Origin: Bradyrhizobium quebecense
GTDB taxonomy: Bacteria > Pseudomonadota > Alphaproteobacteria > Rhizobiales > Xanthobacteraceae
DNA length: 64,000 bases
Reading direction: 5' to 3'
NCBI RefSeq assembly: GCF_013373795.3
Contig: NZ_CP088022.1
Span: 1,054,001-1,118,000 of the forward strand
The position numbers and the translations under genes were made by a program. Positions 14,796 to 58,717 of the stretch are shown one piece after another. The notes under the pieces were generated by a model, which saw nothing but the letters and a program-made list of their open reading frames with translations, made no database searches and was not told the origin of the DNA. The stretch's first letter is position 1; each line of letters begins with the position of its first letter.

Positions 14796-15205
14796 CTGAA
14801 ATATCCTCCCTGTTGTTGACCAAAGCCGCTTTGTTGCGTGCTTGCCGCTCGAACGCTTAGCAGCAGTTTTGCCGCGACGGAAGCGACGCTGCATCGCGCT
14901 GCGCACTCTCCTTTCGTCATTCCGGGGCGTGCGAAGCACGAGCCCGAAATCCATTCATCCACCTTTTGCTCGGGGCCCATGGGTGCGATCGGCACCCGGC
15001 ATTCCCTGCGCCCTCTGTTCAATCAGAGGAGTAAGTTAACCTAAGACTCGGACGCGCCAGCGCCGCGAGGATGCGGATGTATGATTCAATTTGGCACCAC
15101 ATATTCGATGTCGTCCCGGGCAAGCGCAGCGCGACCCGGGACCCATAACCACCGTTGCTCATTGCGTTACGACGCTGTGGCCCCAGCTTGCTTCAACAAC
15201 GGCGT
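14796..15205. other. 410-base gap upstream of IS copy 1
   Basis: No gene seen. It contains a decayed family B repeat half (CGTCATTCCGGGGCGTGCG from about 14916) and the left half of a family E repeat (15110-15153). The rest of that family E repeat resumes beyond the insertion sequence at 16578. Confidence 0.6.
15110..15153. repeat. Family E repeat, left half, split from its right half by IS copy 1
   Basis: TGTCGTCCCGGGCAAGCGCA, then GGGACCCATAACCACCG. The sequence that follows (GACGCTGTGGCCCCAGC) matches the central part of the intact composite repeat at 24443-24562. The right half, ATGGGTCCCGGCCTTCGCC, is found after the IS. Confidence 0.7.
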
Positions 15206-15290
15206 CCTGTGGTTGATGGTGTGGACGGCCCCCTACGGCATCAGTGTGCCAGAATGAGGTTGTTGTAAATCTCAGACAAGGAGACCGTCC

Positions 15291-16319
15291 GTGAGAGAGA
15301 TTATCCGTATTGGGATGGATACGTCGAAGCATATTTTTGTGCTGCATGGAGTTGACGCGGCGGAACAGCCGGTGTTGCGCAAGAAGCTGTCGCGCAAGCA
15401 GGTGCTTGAGTTTTTTGCCAAGCTTCCGCCGACCGTGATCGGGATGGAGGCCTGCGGGGCGGCTCATTACTGGGGGCGCGAGCTTGGCAAGCTTGGCCAT
15501 GAGGTGAAGCTGATAGCGCCGCAGTTGGTGAAGCCTTATGTGCTGCGGAACAAGAACGACGGGCGAGATGCGGATGGGGTGTGCGAAGCGATGGGCCGAC
15601 CGCGGATGCGGTTTGTGCCGGTGAAGAGCGCCGAACAGCAGGCCGCGCTGATGCTTGCAGGTGTCCGCGATGGGCTGATCGGCCGCCGTACCCAGCTCAG
15701 CAATGCGATCCGCGGCTACGCGGCGGAGTTTGGCCTGATCGCGCCGAAGGGGTTGGACAAGATCGAGCCGCTGTTGGCCCGGATCACGCAGGACGAGAGC
15801 GTTCCCGCTATGGCGCGCGAGCTGTTCGCCATGCAGGGCCGTGACTATGCGCAGTTGCAGGGTGAGCTGAAGGCGGTCGAGGCCAGGCTGCTGGCCTGGC
15901 ACCAGGCCAACGCCACAAGCCGTCGTCTGGCCCAGATCCCCTCGGTCGGTCCGATCATCGCGACCTCGCTTGTGATGAAGACGCCGGACCCGCACGCCTT
16001 CCGCTCCGGCCGCTTGTTCGCGGCCTGGCTCGGCCTGACGCCCAAGGACCATTCCACCGCCGGCAAAACCAGGCTCGGCAAGATCACCCGCGCTGGCGAC
16101 GAGACCCTGCGTCGCCTGCTCGTGGCCGGGGCGACCGCGGTGATCCGGCAGGCAAGGCTCGGGCGCGGCCACCCCTCGCGCTGGCTCGTGGCGTTGCTCA
16201 GGCGCAAGCCGCCGAAGCTTGCGGCCGTGGCGCTCGCCAACAAGGTGGCCCGCATCGCCTGGAAGCTGATGGCGACCGGCGAGAGCTATGATGCCGCACG
16301 CATGAACGCTGTCACCTAA
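15291..16319 (+). CDS. IS110 family RuvC-like DEDD transposase
   Basis: 342 aa. The N-terminal RuvC-fold domain carries D10 (IRIGMDTSK), E53 (VIGMEACG) and D90/D93 (NKNDGRDADG). The C-terminal Transposase_20 domain includes the helix-hairpin-helix QIPSVGPIIATSL and the region around the catalytic Ser, DHSTAGKTRLGKITRAGD. IS110 enzymes excise and integrate a circular intermediate, guided by an element-encoded RNA. GTG at 15291 follows AAGGAG with good spacing. It is identical at protein level to 42178-43206. Confidence 0.95.
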   Translation: MREIIRIGMDTSKHIFVLHGVDAAEQPVLRKKLSRKQVLEFFAKLPPTVIGMEACGAAHYWGRELGKLGHEVKLIAPQLVKPYVLRNKNDGRDADGVCEAMGRPRMRFVPVKSAEQQAALMLAGVRDGLIGRRTQLSNAIRGYAAEFGLIAPKGLDKIEPLLARITQDESVPAMARELFAMQGRDYAQLQGELKAVEARLLAWHQANATSRRLAQIPSVGPIIATSLVMKTPDPHAFRSGRLFAAWLGLTPKDHSTAGKTRLGKITRAGDETLRRLLVAGATAVIRQARLGRGHPSRWLVALLRRKPPKLAAVALANKVARIAWKLMATGESYDAARMNAVT

Positions 16320-16562
16320 CAGGTCGGCCGGCCGGACGTAGCGCTCGCCGGACGAACCGGAGCTGCAAGAGCAGATGGAATGATCGATCGATCCAGAACG
16401 CGAGACAAGCCGCGGGACCCATTGGCCTTCACAAGGTCGCCAGGTTGTTTGGCACTCGCGTCGCGGAAACCATCTTGGCCCAGCGATCAACACGATCGCA
16501 TCAAACAGGCCGGACATATGGATGACAGCGATCCGACCAATCCCAGAAAGCTCTTGTGCCAC
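16320..16562 (+). ncRNA. Candidate bridge/seeker RNA of IS copy 1
   Basis: The 243-bp tail downstream of the transposase, up to the right inverted repeat, is where IS1111-type elements encode their guide RNA. It contains CGGGACCCAT (16413-16422), the exact complement of ATGGGTCCCG, the host sequence at the right junction of this copy. This is what a right-target guide should look like. No protein frame of note was seen. The RNA ends and fold cannot be set by eye. Confidence 0.6.
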
Positions 16563-16577
16563 GGGGGCCGTCCACAT

Positions 16578-16604
16578 ATGGGTCCCGGCCTTCGCCGGGA
16601 CGAC
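16578..16604. repeat. Family E repeat, right half, after IS copy 1
   Basis: ATGGGTCCCGGCCTTCGCCG followed by GGACGAC, the standard right arm of family E. It starts immediately at the IS end. Confidence 0.75.
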
Positions 16605-16631
16605 GGCGGTGAATGTGGCGGCCGCAGAAAC

Positions 16632-17426
16632 TCAAAACGCCGTGTACCCACCGTCGATCACGAAGCAATCCGCCGTATGATAGGACGACGCCTTGCTCAT
16701 GAGGTAGACGGCGATGCCGCCGAAATCGCTCGGCTCGCCGAAGCGGCGTACCGGGATGCGCGGCATCACGTTGGCGACGAACTTGTCGTTGGCCATGATG
16801 CCGGCGGTCATGTCGCTCTTGATCCAGCCGGGCAGGATCGCGTTCGCGGTGACGCCGTGGCGAGCGAGTTCGACGGCGAGCGCGCGGCACAGCGCGTTCA
16901 GCGCGGCCTTGGTGCCGGCATAGTGCTCGTTGCGCGCGGTGCCGAACAGCGAGGCGAGGCTCGAGGTCGCGACGAGACGGCCGAACTTGTCACCGGCCTC
17001 GGACCGCTCGGTCATGTGGCGTGCCGCAGCCTGGAATACGTGGAACACGCCGTCGAGATTGGTTGCGAACATCCGTCGCCATTCCTCCTCGGTGCGGTCG
17101 ATGAAGGAGCGGCGTCCGCCGCCGCCGATGCCGGCATTGGCGAAGCAGCCGTCGACGCGGCCGAAGGTGTCGAGCGTCGCCTTCATCGCGGTCTTGACCG
17201 AGCCGGGATCGCTGACGTCGCAGAATTGGGTGGCGACCTTGCCGGGGCCGGCCTTCATCGAGGCGGCGGCGTTGGCGTTTTTTTCCGCGTTGCGGCCCCA
17301 GATCGCGACGTTGCAGCCGGCAGCGTTGAGCGCCTGCGCGATGCCGAGGCCGATTCCGCCATTGCCGCCGGTGATGACAGCGACGCGGCCGGTGAGATCG
17401 AAGATGCCACTCATTGGGGTTTCCAT
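16632..17426 (-). CDS. SDR family oxidoreductase
   Basis: 264 aa. Rossmann glycine motif TGGNGGIGLG at about residues 20-29, NAG-type ANAG at about 95, catalytic Ser in ATSSLASLFG, and YAGTK (YxxxK). It ends VIDGGYTAF. A second ATG at 17414 (MSGIFDL) is equally plausible as the start. It is probably a 3-hydroxyacyl-CoA or related alcohol dehydrogenase, given the acyl-CoA genes around it. It diverges from the enoyl-CoA hydratase gene across 165 bases that hold a small palindrome (AGGTCGA-CCCA-TCGACCT, 17520-17537). Confidence 0.92.
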   Translation of the reverse strand: METPMSGIFDLTGRVAVITGGNGGIGLGIAQALNAAGCNVAIWGRNAEKNANAAASMKAGPGKVATQFCDVSDPGSVKTAMKATLDTFGRVDGCFANAGIGGGGRRSFIDRTEEEWRRMFATNLDGVFHVFQAAARHMTERSEAGDKFGRLVATSSLASLFGTARNEHYAGTKAALNALCRALAVELARHGVTANAILPGWIKSDMTAGIMANDKFVANVMPRIPVRRFGEPSDFGGIAVYLMSKASSYHTADCFVIDGGYTAF

Positions 17427-42036: not shown

Positions 42037-42177
42037 GTACGCCGCGGCTTTCGCAAAGGGCACGCGGCCAGACGGCCTTCTCACAACCAGCACCTGTGGT
42101 TGATGGTGTGGACGGCCCCCTACGGCATCAGTGTGCCAGAATGAGGTTGTTGTAAATCTCAGACAAGGAGACCGTCC

Positions 42178-43206
42178 GTGAGAGAGATTATCCGTATTGG
42201 GATGGATACGTCGAAGCATATTTTTGTGCTGCATGGAGTTGACGCGGCGGAACAGCCGGTGTTGCGCAAGAAGCTGTCGCGCAAGCAGGTGCTTGAGTTT
42301 TTTGCCAAGCTTCCGCCGACCGTGATCGGGATGGAGGCCTGCGGGGCGGCTCATTACTGGGGGCGCGAGCTTGGCAAGCTTGGCCATGAGGTGAAGCTGA
42401 TAGCGCCGCAGTTGGTGAAGCCTTATGTGCTGCGGAACAAGAACGACGGGCGAGATGCGGATGGGGTGTGCGAAGCGATGGGCCGACCGCGGATGCGGTT
42501 TGTGCCGGTGAAGAGCGCCGAACAGCAGGCCGCGCTGATGCTTGCAGGTGTCCGCGATGGGCTGATCGGCCGCCGTACCCAGCTCAGCAATGCGATCCGC
42601 GGCTACGCGGCGGAGTTTGGCCTGATCGCGCCGAAGGGGTTGGACAAGATCGAGCCGCTGTTGGCCCGGATCACGCAGGACGAGAGCGTTCCCGCTATGG
42701 CGCGCGAGCTGTTCGCCATGCAGGGCCGTGACTATGCGCAGTTGCAGGGTGAGCTGAAGGCGGTCGAGGCCAGGCTGCTGGCCTGGCACCAGGCCAACGC
42801 CACAAGCCGTCGTCTGGCCCAGATCCCCTCGGTCGGTCCGATCATCGCGACCTCGCTTGTGATGAAGACGCCGGACCCGCACGCCTTCCGCTCCGGCCGC
42901 TTGTTCGCGGCCTGGCTCGGCCTGACGCCCAAGGACCATTCCACCGCCGGCAAAACCAGGCTCGGCAAGATCACCCGCGCTGGCGACGAGACCCTGCGTC
43001 GCCTGCTCGTGGCCGGGGCGACCGCGGTGATCCGGCAGGCAAGGCTCGGGCGCGGCCACCCCTCGCGCTGGCTCGTGGCGTTGCTCAGGCGCAAGCCGCC
43101 GAAGCTTGCGGCCGTGGCGCTCGCCAACAAGGTGGCCCGCATCGCCTGGAAGCTGATGGCGACCGGCGAGAGCTATGATGCCGCACGCATGAACGCTGTC
43201 ACCTAA
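42178..43206 (+). CDS. IS110 family RuvC-like DEDD transposase (copy 2)
   Basis: 342 aa, identical to the product of 15291-16319: D10, E53 and D90/D93 in the RuvC-like domain and DHSTAGKTRLGKI in the C-terminal domain. Intact and presumably active. It shares the copy 1 leader, including AAGGAG before the GTG start. Confidence 0.95.
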   Translation: MREIIRIGMDTSKHIFVLHGVDAAEQPVLRKKLSRKQVLEFFAKLPPTVIGMEACGAAHYWGRELGKLGHEVKLIAPQLVKPYVLRNKNDGRDADGVCEAMGRPRMRFVPVKSAEQQAALMLAGVRDGLIGRRTQLSNAIRGYAAEFGLIAPKGLDKIEPLLARITQDESVPAMARELFAMQGRDYAQLQGELKAVEARLLAWHQANATSRRLAQIPSVGPIIATSLVMKTPDPHAFRSGRLFAAWLGLTPKDHSTAGKTRLGKITRAGDETLRRLLVAGATAVIRQARLGRGHPSRWLVALLRRKPPKLAAVALANKVARIAWKLMATGESYDAARMNAVT

Positions 43207-43449
43207 CAAGTCGGCCGGCCGGACGTAGCGCTCGCCGGACGAACCGGAGCTGCAAGAGCAGATGGAATGATCGATCGATCCAGAACGCGAGACAAGCCGC
43301 GGGACCCATTGGCCTTCACAAGGTCGCCAGGTTGTTTGGCACTCGCGTCGCGGAAACCATCTTGGCCCAGCGATCAACACGATCGCATCAAACAGGCCGG
43401 ACATATGGATGACAGCGATCCGACCAATCCCAGAAAGCTCTTGTGCCAC
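43207..43449 (+). ncRNA. Candidate bridge/seeker RNA of IS copy 2
   Basis: Same tail as 16320-16562, with one base different at 43209. GGGACCCAT (43301-43309) complements the right junction sequence ATGGGTCCC at 43465-43473. The host base after that differs from copy 1 (T instead of G), so pairing is nine bases here and ten there. Confidence 0.6.
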
Positions 43450-43464
43450 GGGGGCCGTCCACAT

Positions 43465-43491
43465 ATGGGTCCCTGCTTTCGCAGGGACGAC
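43465..43491. repeat. Family E repeat, right half, after IS copy 2
   Basis: ATGGGTCCCTGCTTTCGCAG then GGACGAC, abutting the IS. Confidence 0.75.
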
Positions 43492-53570: not shown

Positions 53571-54566
53571 TCACGCCATGTAGGGCACGCGCGAGATCAC
53601 GTTGACGGCGCGGAATTCGGCGATCCAGCCGGCAACCTTGGAGTGCGACCACTCGATATGGCGGCGCAACGTCGCGGCGGCCGTATCGCCGTCGCGGGCG
53701 CGCAAGGCTTCGATGATCACCAGATGCTCGTCCATGAAGGAATCGATCTGCGGCGCGGTCAGGGCGACCTGGATGTGCTTGCCGATCACGAAAGCGCAAT
53801 GGGTGCGCTTGAGCGCTTCGATCATCTCGCGATTGATGCCGTAACCCAGGCAGCGGATATGGAGGTCGCCCTCGATCTCATCGAGCTCGCCGACGCCGAC
53901 GCGGCTGCGGAATTGGATCCCTTCGCGCAGCCGCTCCGCCATCCGGTCAAGCAGCGCGGTCGGAATCCTCGCCGCAGCGGATTTGAGGAGCAGCGGCTCG
54001 AGGGTTGCGCGCACCTCGAAGATGTCGCGGAGGCGATCCTCATCAAGCGGCACGACATACCAATGAGCCTTGGCGCCTTTCTCCAGGATTCCGATCGCCT
54101 GCGCACGTAGCAGCAAATTGCGCGCAACCGTGCGCCCGACCCGGAAGTGCCGCGCCAATGCGAGCTCGCTGACGCGGAAGCGTCCGAACAGCGACCGGTA
54201 GATGATCTCGCGCTCGAGCTTGTAATAGAGCGTATCCCAGGCGTCGCTGCGCACCGCCTCGACGGGGCCGTCGGTCAGCCCAAACATCTCCGGCGTGATC
54301 GGGACGCGCCGCGGGTCGACCTTGCGCTTGCCGGCGATCACGCCGCGGCCATCGAAGCGGCGCACCAGGCCGATGTGCTCGAGCTGTTCGAAGGCCTGCC
54401 GTACCGGCGAGCGGCTCGAGCCGAACAAGGTCGCGATCGCCGATTCGGAGAGAACCGTGCCGGGTGGCACGTCACCGGCCCGGATGTGCTTCGCCAATGC
54501 GCTCTTGATCAGCGCGTAGGCCGGCTGTTTTCGTCTGGTCTGCGATTTCGCTCTTGGAATCGACAT
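53571..54566 (-). CDS. GntR family regulator with two winged-helix domains and FCD domain
   Basis: 331 aa from ATG 54566; an earlier in-frame ATG at 54608 is possible. A normal GntR head (about 16-78: VLSESAIATLFGSSRSPVRQ) is followed by a second winged-helix-like segment (about 112-172: FRVSELALARHFRVGRTVAR). Then comes an FCD ligand domain (about 175-310) with DIFEVRATLEPLLLKSA. FCD domains bind small organic acids. It points away from the ABC-Ldh-HpaI-UxaA operon, which it most likely controls. Confidence 0.88.
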   Translation of the reverse strand: MSIPRAKSQTRRKQPAYALIKSALAKHIRAGDVPPGTVLSESAIATLFGSSRSPVRQAFEQLEHIGLVRRFDGRGVIAGKRKVDPRRVPITPEMFGLTDGPVEAVRSDAWDTLYYKLEREIIYRSLFGRFRVSELALARHFRVGRTVARNLLLRAQAIGILEKGAKAHWYVVPLDEDRLRDIFEVRATLEPLLLKSAAARIPTALLDRMAERLREGIQFRSRVGVGELDEIEGDLHIRCLGYGINREMIEALKRTHCAFVIGKHIQVALTAPQIDSFMDEHLVIIEALRARDGDTAAATLRRHIEWSHSKVAGWIAEFRAVNVISRVPYMA

Positions 54567-54656
54567 GGATGACTGCCCGCCGGTCACACTATCATGTGAT
54601 CCCGTCATGGTCGCTGGTAGCAGGCATTTACACACCGTTGCCAGCGACTTTTGACT

Positions 54657-54668
54657 ATTGCGTGCAAT
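54657..54668. promoter_or_regulatory. Candidate operator of the GntR/FCD regulator
   Basis: ATTGCGTGCAAT, a palindrome with outer ATTG/CAAT, followed by a direct GTGCAAT repeat (54669-54675). A TTGACT at 54651 could be a -35 element of the plus-strand operon. The position fits autoregulation and control of the ABC operon. Confidence 0.45.
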
Positions 54669-54854
54669 GTGCAATCATGTTTAGCTATGTCAAACGCCAG
54701 ATTGATGGCAGCCGTTGCGCGTCTTGTGCGCCGCAAGCGGCGCTCACGTTTGTTCGTCGTGCCGATTGACGGCTGCGGATAGGCACTCGATCGACGCGTC
54801 AGCTCGTTTCAACGCAGCCGATATGCAAGTCGGCGCACCAAAAGGGAGGATTGA

Positions 54855-56000
54855 ATGAAACTGACGAGGCGTGAGTTTTCCGCCGGCTTGGCGGCAGGTC
54901 TCGCTGCTCCCGCGCTGATGCGCAGCGCTTGGGCGCAGGGAGCGACCATCAAGATCGGCATGTGCGTGCCGGTGACCGGACCGGCAGCGGAGCAGGGCCT
55001 GTGGGCCCAGAACGGCGCCAAGCTGGCGCTGGCCGCGGTCAACAAGGCCGGCGGCGTGCTCGGCAAGCAGGTCGAACTCGTCATCGAGGACGACCAGACC
55101 ACCAATCCGGGCATCGTGCTGGCGTTCTCCAAGCTTGCCGCGCAGCCCGACATCGTTGCCTTCCTCGGTTCGATCCGCTCGACCCAGGTGCAGGCGATGG
55201 CGCCCGACGTGATCAAGGTCGGCAAGCCGGTGATGATCGGCGGCACCAATCCCGATCTCACCCATTCCGGTAATCCCTGGCTGTTCCGCTTCCGCCCGAA
55301 TGACAATTATTCCGGCCGCGTGATTGCCGATTTCGGCGTCACCACGCTCGGCAAGAAGAAATGGGCGATCGTCCATTCCACCGACGCCTTCGGTACTGCG
55401 GGCGGCAAGGCACTCACCGAGGCGCTGACCAAGCTCGGCGCGCCGCCGGTGCTTGACCAGGGCTATGCCAACCAGAGCCAGGACTTCACCCCGGTCGTGC
55501 TGGCCGTAAAGCAGTCCGGAGCCGACGTGCTCGGCACCTACTTCACCTTCGAGAACGACCTCGGCATCTTTGCCCGGCAGTTGCGCCAGCTCGGCGTCAA
55601 CATCCCCTGGGTCGGCTCGCCCTCGGTGGTGGCGGTCTCCTCGACCAAGCTCGCCGGTCCGGCGCTGTTTGGCACCTATGGGGTCGCCGACTTCGCCGAA
55701 GACTCGAGCGATACCGCGAAGGCGTTCGGCAAGTCTTATCGTGATGCCTACAAGACCGCGCCCGACAACCAGAGCGCCTGGCCGTACGACGCGATCACCA
55801 TCCTGTCGGCGGCGATCAACAAGGCCGGCTCGACCGATCCGAACAAGATCCGCGACGCCATCCTGGCGACGCAGAAATTCGCCGGTGCGGAAGGCGAGTA
55901 TAATTTCGACAAGAACGGCGACGGCCTGCACGGCTACAATGTTGTGAAGAACGACAAGGGCAAGATCGTTTACGACAAGCATATCGACTTCAACGATTGA
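54855..56000 (+). CDS. ABC transporter substrate-binding protein, LIV-BP family (Tat signal)
   Basis: 381 aa. The signal MKLTRREFSAGLAAGLAAPA carries a twin Arg (TRREF), so Tat export is likely. AAAGGGAGGATTGA gives a strong ribosome binding site. The mature part begins IKIGMCVPVTGPAAEQG. It should bind the organic acid degraded by the downstream enzymes. First gene of an operon to 63107. Confidence 0.94.
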   Translation: MKLTRREFSAGLAAGLAAPALMRSAWAQGATIKIGMCVPVTGPAAEQGLWAQNGAKLALAAVNKAGGVLGKQVELVIEDDQTTNPGIVLAFSKLAAQPDIVAFLGSIRSTQVQAMAPDVIKVGKPVMIGGTNPDLTHSGNPWLFRFRPNDNYSGRVIADFGVTTLGKKKWAIVHSTDAFGTAGGKALTEALTKLGAPPVLDQGYANQSQDFTPVVLAVKQSGADVLGTYFTFENDLGIFARQLRQLGVNIPWVGSPSVVAVSSTKLAGPALFGTYGVADFAEDSSDTAKAFGKSYRDAYKTAPDNQSAWPYDAITILSAAINKAGSTDPNKIRDAILATQKFAGAEGEYNFDKNGDGLHGYNVVKNDKGKIVYDKHIDFND

Positions 56001-56072: not shown

Positions 56073-56948
56073 ATGGATCTGGTTCTACAACTGCTGTTCA
56101 CCGGCATCGGCATCGGCGCGGTCTACGCGCTGGTCGCGCTCGGTTTCGTGCTGATCTTCCGCGCCACCAACGTGGTGAACTTCGCGCAAGGCGAGTTCTC
56201 GATGGTGGCCGCCTATCTGATGGTGGTGTTCTCGGTCGATCTCGGCTGGCCTTACTGGCTGTCGTTCCTGATCGCGCTCGCCGGCATGGCGCTGTTTGGC
56301 GTCATCTTCAATCTTGGCGTCTATTATCCGCTGCGCCACCGCACCTATCTGCCTGTCATCATCGCCACCATCGGCGCCTCGATCCTGCTGTCGAACTCGG
56401 TGCTGGCGATCTACGGCCCGCAGCCGCAGGTGCTGCAGGGCTGGTTCGATACGCCCGGCATCCAGCTCGGCCCGGTCTATCTCGACAGCCAGTATCTGTT
56501 GATCATCGGCGTCACGATCCTCCTGGTGCTGTTCAATTTCTGGTTCTTCGAGAAGACGCTGCTCGGCAAGAAACTGCAGGCGACCTCGCAGGACAAGGAG
56601 ATGGCGTCGCTGCTCGGCATTTCCGTCCCCACCATGATCATGATCACCTTCATCTATTCGGCCGTGCTCGGCGGTCTCGCAGGCATCCTGGTGGCGCCCG
56701 TGCTGTTCGTCTCGATCCAGATGGGCTCGACGATTGCGCTGAAGGCGTTTGCCGCGACCATCATCGGCGGCTTCGGCGATGTCGCCGGCGCCATCGTCGG
56801 CGGTCTGGCGCTCGGCGTCATCGAGACGTTCGGCGCCGCCTACATTTCGGTGCCGTACAAGGACGGCTTTGCATTTCTGGTGCTGATCGCTTTCCTGGTG
56901 TTCCGGCCGCAGGGCATCTTCGGCGAACGCGTCGCGGAGAAAGCATGA
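56073..56948 (+). CDS. LIV-type ABC transporter permease (LivH family)
   Basis: 291 aa, eight or so membrane helices; GFVLIFRATNVVNFAQGEFS is the LivH signature. The coupling region reads LQATSQDKEMASLLGISVPT. Its stop overlaps the start of the LivM-LivG fusion (ATGA). Confidence 0.94.
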   Translation: MDLVLQLLFTGIGIGAVYALVALGFVLIFRATNVVNFAQGEFSMVAAYLMVVFSVDLGWPYWLSFLIALAGMALFGVIFNLGVYYPLRHRTYLPVIIATIGASILLSNSVLAIYGPQPQVLQGWFDTPGIQLGPVYLDSQYLLIIGVTILLVLFNFWFFEKTLLGKKLQATSQDKEMASLLGISVPTMIMITFIYSAVLGGLAGILVAPVLFVSIQMGSTIALKAFAATIIGGFGDVAGAIVGGLALGVIETFGAAYISVPYKDGFAFLVLIAFLVFRPQGIFGERVAEKA

Positions 56949-58717
56949 GCGCCAGCGACAACATGATTCCGGCGCCGGCCGTGCGCTCGAAGCCGCTGAT
57001 TATCCGCCATCTGCCGTATTTCATCGGCGCGGCTGCGCTGGTGGCGCTCGCCGCCGGCATGCAGTTCGACGGTTACATCCTCAACATCCTGCTACAGGCG
57101 ACGACGTTCTCGATCGCGGTGTTCGGGCTTTCGGTCGTGCTCGGCCTGTGCGGCCAGATCAACCTGGCGCAGGCCGCGTTCTTCGGCTTCGGCGCCTATG
57201 TCGTCGGCCTCGGGACCGCCGACCTGCATCTGAACTTCTGGCTTTGCCTGGTCGGCGCCTGCGCGATCACGCTGGTCGCCGGCGCGTTTCTGGGCATGTC
57301 GACGCTGCGGCTCGGCGGGCACTACCTTGCGATGGTGACGATCTCGTTCCAGCAGATCGTGACGCTGGTGATGATCAACGCCATCGGCGTGACCCACGGG
57401 CCGGACGGCATCGCGAACATTCGTCGGCCCGAGCTGTTCCAGTCCTCGCAAAGCTATCTCGCCTTCTGCGTCGCGATGCTTGCGATCGTCGGCTATCTGG
57501 TCTGGCATTTGCCTGACACCAAGCTTGGCCGCGCCATGCGCGCGGTGCGCGACAATGAGCTCGCGGCCGGCGTCAACGGCATCGACGTGTTCCGCACCAA
57601 GGTCTACGCCTTCGCGGTGTGCGCAGTGCTCGGCGGCCTCGCCGGCGGCCTGTTCGCCGGCGGCTTTGCCTATGTCAGTCCGGACCAGTTCTCGTTCGCG
57701 GAATCCATTCAGTTCCTGACCATGTCGCTGCTCGGCGGCGTGGCCTCGCCGATCGGCTCCGCGATCGGCACCGGGCTGTTGATCCTGATCCCGGAATGGC
57801 TGCGCTTCCTGAAGAGTGTGCCGGGCCTCTACCTCGCGATCTACGGCCTGTCGGTGATCCTGATCATCCGCTTCATGCCGGACGGCATCTGGGGCTTCGT
57901 GTCCGACGCGTTCACACGCTGGCGCGCGAACACCAAGGCGCCGCCGGTTGCCGGAGCGCTCCAGCTCAAGCCTGCGACGACCGGCGGCGACATCGTGCTC
58001 GAAGTCACCGGGCTCTCGAAGCATTTCGGCGGCCTCAAGGCGGTGGATGACGTCGACATCGCGGTGAAGCGCGGCGGCGTGCATGCGCTGATCGGACCCA
58101 ACGGCTCCGGCAAGACCACGACGCTGAACGTCTTGTCCGGCCTCTACAAGGCGACCGCGGGCAAGATCGTGCTCGACGGCACCGACATCACCAGCATGGC
58201 GCCGCATCAGCGCACCGCGGCGGGGCTCGGACGCACCTTCCAGAACATCCGCCTGTTCCGCTCGATGACCGCGCTGGAGAATGTCGAGATCGGCGCCGAG
58301 CGTCCGGGCAACACCATGATCGGGAAGGGCGACGACGCGCTGACCGAGCGGGCGATGGAGGCTTTGACCTTCGTCGGCCTCGGCAACCGCGCCAACGAGT
58401 TGATCTCGAGCTTCTCCTACGGCCATCAGCGCCTGATCGAGATCGCGCGGGCGCTGGCGTCGAACCCGACGCTGCTGTTGCTCGACGAGCCGGCTGCCGG
58501 CCTCAACTCGACCGAGAAGCTCGAACTGCACGAGTTGCTCAAGCGCATCGCGGCCCAGGGCCTCACCATCCTGATCATCGATCACGACATGACGCTGGTC
58601 TCGGAAGCCGCCCAGCACATCACCGTGCTGAACTTCGGACGCCGCATCGCGGACGGCGAGTCGATGGCGGTGCTGCGTCATCCCGACGTCGTCTCCGCCT
58701 ATCTCGGGAGCGAATGA
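56945..58717 (+). CDS. Fused LIV-type ABC permease-ATPase (LivM-LivG)
   Basis: 590 aa. Residues 1-325 are a LivM-type permease (GLCGQINLAQAAFFGFGAY, VRDNELAAGVNGIDVFRTK). After a short linker (WRANTKAPPVAGALQ), residues about 348-590 are a LivG-type ATPase with Walker A GPNGSGKTT (about 384), signature FSYGHQR (about 489) and Walker B LLLLDEPAAGL (about 510). The frame is continuous with no stop or rescue start at the join. Such fusions occur in this transporter family; the homologous operon at 36-39 kb keeps them separate. Confidence 0.93.
   Translation: MSASDNMIPAPAVRSKPLIIRHLPYFIGAAALVALAAGMQFDGYILNILLQATTFSIAVFGLSVVLGLCGQINLAQAAFFGFGAYVVGLGTADLHLNFWLCLVGACAITLVAGAFLGMSTLRLGGHYLAMVTISFQQIVTLVMINAIGVTHGPDGIANIRRPELFQSSQSYLAFCVAMLAIVGYLVWHLPDTKLGRAMRAVRDNELAAGVNGIDVFRTKVYAFAVCAVLGGLAGGLFAGGFAYVSPDQFSFAESIQFLTMSLLGGVASPIGSAIGTGLLILIPEWLRFLKSVPGLYLAIYGLSVILIIRFMPDGIWGFVSDAFTRWRANTKAPPVAGALQLKPATTGGDIVLEVTGLSKHFGGLKAVDDVDIAVKRGGVHALIGPNGSGKTTTLNVLSGLYKATAGKIVLDGTDITSMAPHQRTAAGLGRTFQNIRLFRSMTALENVEIGAERPGNTMIGKGDDALTERAMEALTFVGLGNRANELISSFSYGHQRLIEIARALASNPTLLLLDEPAAGLNSTEKLELHELLKRIAAQGLTILIIDHDMTLVSEAAQHITVLNFGRRIADGESMAVLRHPDVVSAYLGSE

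Follow-up and report, generated by a model that had tools for sequence, protein, structure and literature searches.

Does the non-coding tail of an IS1111-type insertion sequence in Bradyrhizobium quebecense encode an RNA that directs the element to its target? The question was raised by ten bases, CGGGACCCAT, located downstream of a transposase gene in the window (the whole stretch of 64,000 nucleotides that was analysed). A previous sequence-only reading took these bases to be the guide for the right half of the target, because they are complementary to the host DNA at the right junction, but it could not place the remaining guides by eye.

An IS1111-type element in a host repeat

We found two copies of one element in the window, 26,887 bp apart and identical over 15206-16586 except for one base (16322). 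The parts needed here, outside of the tail, are the following:

15206..15214, + strand: left target half in the host, CCTGTGGTT, with GGTT kept at 28/28 copies
15220..15233, + strand: left subterminal inverted repeat, TGTGGACGGCCCCC, perfect 14-bp complement of 16563-16576
15291..16319, + strand: transposase gene, 342 aa with a GTG start, from the list of open reading frames and Pfam
16563..16576, - strand: right subterminal inverted repeat, GGGGGCCGTCCACA, perfect 14-bp complement of 15220-15233
16578..16587, + strand: right target half in the host, ATGGGTCCCG, directly past the right end of the element
42093..43473, + strand: second copy with its shared target bases, carrying the same guides, right flank ATGGGTCCCT

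The transposase consists of an N-terminal DEDD/RuvC-like domain and a C-terminal Transposase_20 domain (Pfam DEDD_Tnp_IS110 and Transposase_20, 37.2 and 75.3 bits), and residues D10, E53, D90, and D93 (numbered after the first row of the alignment, L144) are invariant across 16 aligned relatives. Its 342 aa lie within the approximately 330 to 350 aa of IS1111 DEDD transposases with PF01548/PF02371, and the IS1111 motif of the type GL-P----S(T)G, which occasionally has TA, is present as GLTPKDHSTAG, with TA at the motif. The subterminal inverted repeats, 11 to 13 bp as a norm in IS1111, are here perfect over 14 bp, and the terminal extensions typical of this group (7 bp left, 3 bp right) are GATGGTG and CAT when the repeat is counted from TGGACGG. 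Empty sites reading GGTT^ATGGG agree with this count; with the repeat counted from GTGGACGG instead, the 7/3 rule predicts a site two bases shorter. The longer non-coding region is downstream, as in IS1111, with 243 bp between the stop codon and the right repeat (16320-16562, the tail length already given by the sequence-only reading) versus 57 bp between the left repeat and the start codon. The top-strand guide (T, 16413-16422) is located 5' of the bottom-strand guide (B, 16443-16447), which is the IS1111 order, and a single target is used in one orientation (28/28 full copies found). The element thus differs from the IS621-like IS110 pattern, in which the RNA is upstream of the recombinase gene and the left guide comes first, in that its guides are downstream and in reversed order.

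A search of the genome recovered at least 28 full near-identical copies, at least one broken copy in two pieces, at least three relatives at 83% identity, and at least two short fragments, all of them lower bounds since 40 of 130 first-look candidates were scored. Every full copy (28/28) is preceded by GGTT and followed by ATGGGTCCC. Two copies (L028 and L008, genome positions 54472-55833 and 56841-58205) are separated by ca. 1 kb and point in opposite directions. ATGGGTCCC belongs to a host repeat that is abundant; a pattern of ATGGGTCCC preceded by seven free bases and by any base but T as the eighth is matched at 148 genome places, and the 100 of these that were listed comprise 19 element ends, 19 guide copies, and 62 unoccupied places. 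GGTT is found on the left of 21 of the 62 unoccupied listed places and of 28/28 occupied ones (Fisher p 2.6e-10, an optimistic value because the host repeats are related to one another); therefore, the left half is selected too, as a left guide reading GGTT predicts. Six insertion sites were sought in 21 genomes, and at three of them the orthologous place is empty in a relative, with the sequence GGTTATGGGTCC(C) (L010 in G004, 92% over all 440 bp, and in G010; L013 in G004; L008 in G010). Judging from these sequences, the element appears to represent a new and clean case in which an RNA guides insertion into a REP-like repeat of the host.

Covariation of the guides with target and element ends

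The sequence-only reading was correct about the decamer, whose reverse complement is identical to the ten host bases that follow the right end of the element (16578-16587), and equally about the nine-base pairing in copy 2 (guide at 43300-43309, flank ATGGGTCCCT at 43465). An exact same-strand match of that one decamer is expected by chance 0.0002 times, or 0.0005 times with the composition of the tail. However, 46 of 2000 shuffled tails match some flank 10-mer when both 30-nt flanks and both strands are allowed, and for this reason the match alone is not proof; it is suggestive rather than decisive. These shuffles, together with the 148 genome places that match ATGGGTCCC, speak for the view that the decamer has no guiding role, being either a stray piece of the host repeat (in which GGGACCCAT occurs) or an accidental match, with the target read by the transposase alone; a further occurrence of the decamer, at 15137, falls within the flank to the left of copy 1. 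What we consider decisive for a guide role is not the match in the window but the covariation in relatives, for which these segments of the tail were compared with flanks and ends:

16413..16422, + strand: right-target guide (T, RTG), CGGGACCCAT, complements the own right flank in relatives, with held-out positions +6 to +9 covarying
16443..16447, + strand: putative left-target guide (B, LTG), GGTTG, sense of GGTT in the left flank and of base 1 of the element
16469..16474, + strand: candidate left-end donor guide (RDG), ACCATC, complement of left end GATGGT
16514..16521, + strand: putative right-end donor guide (LDG), ACATATGG, sense of right end ACAT plus right flank ATGG

Relatives were collected by protein searches in 117 genomes of the genus, 249 of the order, and 398 of the phylum (counts to be read as at least), and further places for retrieval were picked by hand. 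An inverted-repeat pair was present in 192 of 200 loci inspected. After dropping 24 of them (13 removed manually as apparent false repeats, 10 that had no anchor, and 1 lying at a contig edge), 168 were left, and re-adding six gave 174 loci in 118 clusters, 117 of which were used (set 1); a few misplaced flanks persist among them (L065, L069, L097). Set 2 derives from a scan of named genomes, where 51 of the best 80 loci were placed without hand-picking and 29 were not placed; 49 are non-redundant. Owing to the loci dropped or not placed, both sets favour elements with clear ends. Shuffle tests count related clusters as independent, whereas contrasts between sister pairs (50 disjoint pairs) do not. 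In one relative (L121), a tandem duplication covers the end of the tail together with the region of the right repeat.

The alignment of related tails with their junctions, proposed by the sequence-only reading as a check, upheld the right-target guide. In set 1, tails match their own right flank at 7.25 of 9 bases versus 5.49 when shuffled (z 23, 117 clusters; standard deviation 0.076 and maximum 5.83 in 2000 shuffles), with z 4.1 for the wrong sense and -0.2 for the wrong flank; the values in set 2 are 6.98 versus 5.34 (z 15.0, 49 elements; wrong sense, z 0.6). Examples of guides and flanks in relatives are ATGGGTCCTG with CAGGACCCAT, ATGGGAATG with CATTCCCAT, TGAACCGAGC with GCTCGGTTCA, ATGGCACAA with TTGTGCCAT, and GGACATC with GATGTCC. 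When guides were anchored on +1 to +5 (38/117 clusters), the held-out positions +6 to +9 matched at 61-87% versus 28-39%, and no match was found at +10 to +13. Sister pairs differing at +7 to +10 have an RNA that follows its own flank in 48 cases and the flank of the sister in 13, compared with 11 own and 15 swapped at +11 to +14. The right guide accordingly spans +2 to +9 or +10 by held-out positions, the two anchorings disagreeing on +10 (z 3.7 anchored on +4 to +9, z -0.3 on +1 to +5). Matches of at most 5/9 bases occur in 7/117 clusters and 5/49 further elements, and of at most 6/9 in 32/117 clusters. The same decamer beside a different sequence would speak against the proposal. Here the guide generally changes with the flank; an exception is L075, which has the GGGACCCAT of its clade and yet adjoins ATGGGACGG. 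In a clade with 55-56% identity (L079-L084, L111, L158), the right flank CTGCAATCT is kept (it is different in L080) and left flanks vary; of these, L158 shows a good match for the right guide in its usual position, which the other members mostly lack.

Relatives inserted in quite different sequences thus carry the complement of those sequences at the same region of the tail, and this covariation rules out host scrap or chance as a general account; for the element in the window, we regard such an origin as very improbable. Segment 16413-16422 is almost certainly the right-target guide of a seeker or bridge RNA of the IS1111 type, encoded by the non-coding tail that follows the transposase gene.

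The left guide, the right-end donor guide and, weakly, the left-end donor guide are newly proposed here. GGTTG, 20 nt further on, would match the top strand of the left target half. In set 1, this segment agrees with its own left flank at 5.50 of 7 bases versus 4.55 shuffled (z 15.9; wrong strand, z -0.3), and in set 2 at z 11.5 (wrong sense, z 0.7). By held-out positions (75/117 clusters anchored), it spans -6 to -1 plus the first two bases of the element; the sixth base (LF-6) has a held-out z of 6.8 and sister contrasts of 11 to 6 (p 0.33). Three relatives (L067, L101, and L108) have nearly the same right guide combined with a left guide, GGAGT or GGCGT, that agrees with the left flank of the respective element, and arms ending in GGCGT (11) and GGAGT (5) are found among the 62 unoccupied listed places of the genome of the window. 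Related elements may divide up the arms of one host repeat family.

The assignment of ACATATGG to the right end is robust in the covariation data, with z 23 in set 1 (wrong strand, z 4.6) and 12.4 in set 2. It spans the last four bases of the right end plus +1 to +5 of the right flank (114/117 anchored). Compared with the left end of the element, held-out positions +1 to +4 gave no match (z 0.6, 1.0, 0.0, and 0.0), and +5 and +6 gave z 2.1 and 2.7. Given the lack of a left-end match at +1 to +4, the segment is read as made for the inserted right junction rather than for the joined ends of a circle. ACCATC is a candidate only, with z 5.4 in set 1 but z 1.8 in set 2; held-out positions LE+5 and LE+6 gave z 7.9 and 4.3, and the core side does not match (z -2.4).

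Predicted fold of the tail RNA

A consensus structure was derived from a sequence alignment of 55 clusters with transposases at least 48% identical and with locatable right-target and right-end guides. It contains two predicted loops:

16398..16461, + strand: loop 1, with helix P1 (16398-16404/16455-16461) enclosing T, hairpin P2, and B
16463..16525, + strand: loop 2, with short closing pairs 16463-16464/16524-16525, RDG, P3, P4, and LDG

Helix P1 has seven pairs, each formed in 45-52 of 53-54 sequences; four of them occur as five or six pair types, i.e., with compensatory pairs. Hairpin P2 comprises 16423-16429/16433-16439 in the single-sequence fold and 16425-16427/16435-16437 in the consensus. 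Between P1 and P2, the right and left guides are placed on opposite sides of one loop, and the two donor guides likewise oppose each other around P3 (16477-16481/16508-16511) and hairpin P4 (16483-16487/16495-16499). P3 is nearly invariant and therefore says little about covariation. Loop 2 would thus hold two guides for the ends of the element itself, well indicated by sequence for the right end and weakly for the left. A position of the decamer in a paired stem would have been at odds with the sequence-only reading, but none of its ten bases is in a consensus pair (55 relatives) and it lies between P1 and P2. In the single-sequence fold, some of its bases pair weakly with the left guide, and the consensus includes a two-pair helix of 16446-16447, inside B, with 16438-16439. 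The consensus has a modest energy (-19.4 kcal/mol), the fold of the single sequence is weak evidence when taken alone (z -0.35, -1.86, and -1.47), and an Rfam search of 15100-16700 found nothing at E values up to 1.

Core, possible handshake bases, and known systems

In five other clades, the retrieved empty orthologs are two bases shorter than the joined flanks (L105, 12/12; L194, 15/17; L076, 7/7; L197, 4/4; L128, 1/1). A shared TG core fits L105, L194, and L076; L197 has TA in three and TG in one, and L128 fits no shared pair. L105 and L109 share an insertion site within a conserved sequence that is present in multiple copies, and the 12/12 retrieved empty orthologs (L276, L277, and L279-L288) agree with it. 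We take this target to resemble the 3' end of an IS66-type transposase gene.

The empty site in the clade of the window, GGTTATGGG, is two bases longer than the pattern of those five clades predicts. A TG core (site GGT-TG-GGTCCC) was rejected for this clade, as a site of that length is absent from all seven junction-spanning rows: four of them, from three insertion sites, read GGTTATGGG, as does one paralogous arm, and two poorer matches (73% and 76%) read GCGTATCGG and GGCTATGGG. Moreover, TGTGGTTGGGTCCC is found at none of the 51 genome places fitting the pattern TGTGG...GGGTCCC, compared with 24 that read TGTGGTTATGGGTCCC, uninterrupted. From these sequences, either the circle junction would be shorter by two bases here or two target bases would be lost on insertion; the two forms of circle junction considered, CACAT joined to GATGG or CACATATGATGG, bear on how GGTTATGGG fits.

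Across relatives, the last base of the left flank equals right-flank +2 in 108/117 clusters (74 shuffled) and 36/49 set 2 elements (18.7 shuffled), which agrees with a TG shared by both junctions in L105, L194, and L076. The second base of the core varies more, LE+1 being identical to RF+3 in 87/117 clusters (74.6 shuffled). Past the core, the right-end donor guide agrees with host base RF+4 in a fraction of 0.68 versus 0.33 in set 1 (z 9.3, n=113) and 0.43 versus 0.22 in set 2 (z 3.8, n=47), and the alternative that it follows the left end of the element gave z -1.3 and 1.3. Sister contrasts at RF+4/RF+5 are 8 to 0 (p 0.008), versus 5 to 5 at control positions +7 to +10. For the left-target guide, the corresponding base gave z 4.9 in set 1, sister contrasts of 5 to 1 (p 0.22), and z 0.0 in set 2, in which it shows hardly any variation. 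In the element of the window, G at 16521, past the core in the right-end guide, fits the host base, whereas T at 16448, past the core in the left guide, does not fit the A of the element. One base past the core, the right-target guide (T) matches the left target (z 4.6 and 2.5 in sets 1 and 2); two bases past, its agreement with the right end is confined to set 1 (z 3.6 versus 0.6).

Two other explanations of the right-end segment have to be weighed against these data. ACATATGG (16514-16521) could be a conserved processing or protein-binding motif that merely resembles the right end. Durrant et al. placed the donor nucleotides of IS1111 elements by prediction only, according to the available text (PMC11208160), and an 82-nt RNA suffices for ISEc11 in the available text of Siddiquee et al. 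(PMC11187229), which by its length should be without the distal part. A motif of this kind would hardly track both the right end and host flank bases across clades, as the segment does at RF+4 in both sets and in the sister contrasts, and we consider it unlikely. It could also be that element boundaries were misplaced and the matching host bases really belong to the element, since empty sites put RF+1 inside the element in L105, L194, and L076. However, RF+4 is present in the empty sites of those clades (e.g., GCCC-TG-GGAATG, 12/12 retrieved orthologs) and yet covaries with the RNA, which speaks against a boundary error, likewise considered unlikely. A right-end donor guide that continues into the host flank is the reading we keep.

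The kind of guide RNA is already known, and the element would be a new member (PMC11187229, PMC11208160, as far as their available text goes). IS1111 guide RNAs with T before B in the downstream non-coding region have been published (PMC11187229), and the seekRNA elements ISEc11, ISPa11, and ISKpn4 share with ours the DEDD transposase, the subterminal inverted repeats, the non-coding region downstream of tnp, and the top-strand-first order of both guides in one folded RNA; ISPa11 likewise enters REP repeats. Element and target are different here, and the donor guides, not reported in the available text of that paper, are drawn from covariation. For ISPa11 and other IS1111 elements, earlier work had predicted donor guides by inspection (PMC11208160; ISPa11 is among the six elements in the legend of Extended Data Fig. 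10), and these predictions share with ours a right-end bridge RNA with donor nucleotides in a multiloop. By that text and legend, single elements were inspected there, whereas 117 clusters and 49 elements were tested here. Among the journal papers, mostly open-access, that were listed in searches on IS1111, bridge RNA, and seekRNA, no covariation evidence for IS1111 donor guides or handshake bases was found. What appears new from sequence comparison is the left guide GGTTG, the right-end donor guide, and, weakly, the left-end donor guide, in a two-loop structure.

The IS621 bridge RNA also has target and donor loops with a left and a right guide each, a short core, and an extension of guides past the core to non-cognate DNA (PMC11208160, PMC11208158, available text). 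These handshake guides, so named by Hiraizumi et al., sit at the end of the right guides in IS621 (PMC11208158), whereas the extension here would be on the left donor guide, pairing with the bottom strand. In running past the core into the host right flank, the right-end donor guide would resemble them on the opposite strand. It is thus conceivable, although we lean slightly against it, that IS1111 elements use IS621-like handshake guides in mirror image, with the past-core bases at the 3' end of the bottom-strand guides. The covariation supports such a handshake for the right-end donor guide; none is claimed for the left-target guide. If the mirror arrangement were true, the RNA would be complementary to the junctions of the inserted element, a single flip of RNA polarity would explain why the guides lie downstream, why their order is reversed, and why the handshake bases have moved, and bottom strands would therefore be predicted to be exchanged first.

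As for the way in which the element inserts, the tail is most likely processed from the transcript of the element, by analogy with the systems described in the available text of PMC11187229 and PMC11208160, and its RNA would bind the transposase. The first loop would bind the two halves of the host repeat GGTT^ATGGGTCCCG, pairing with both strands, and the second loop would pair with the ends of the element. Pairing with both repeat strands would place the element there in one orientation.

The relatives represent a natural series of reprogrammed guides, some of which keep nearly the same right guide with a differing left guide. The covariation of the second loop with the right end of the element and the right flank of the host provides testable assignments for a part of the long IS1111 RNA to which its discoverers gave no definite role, and hints at the strand that may be exchanged first.
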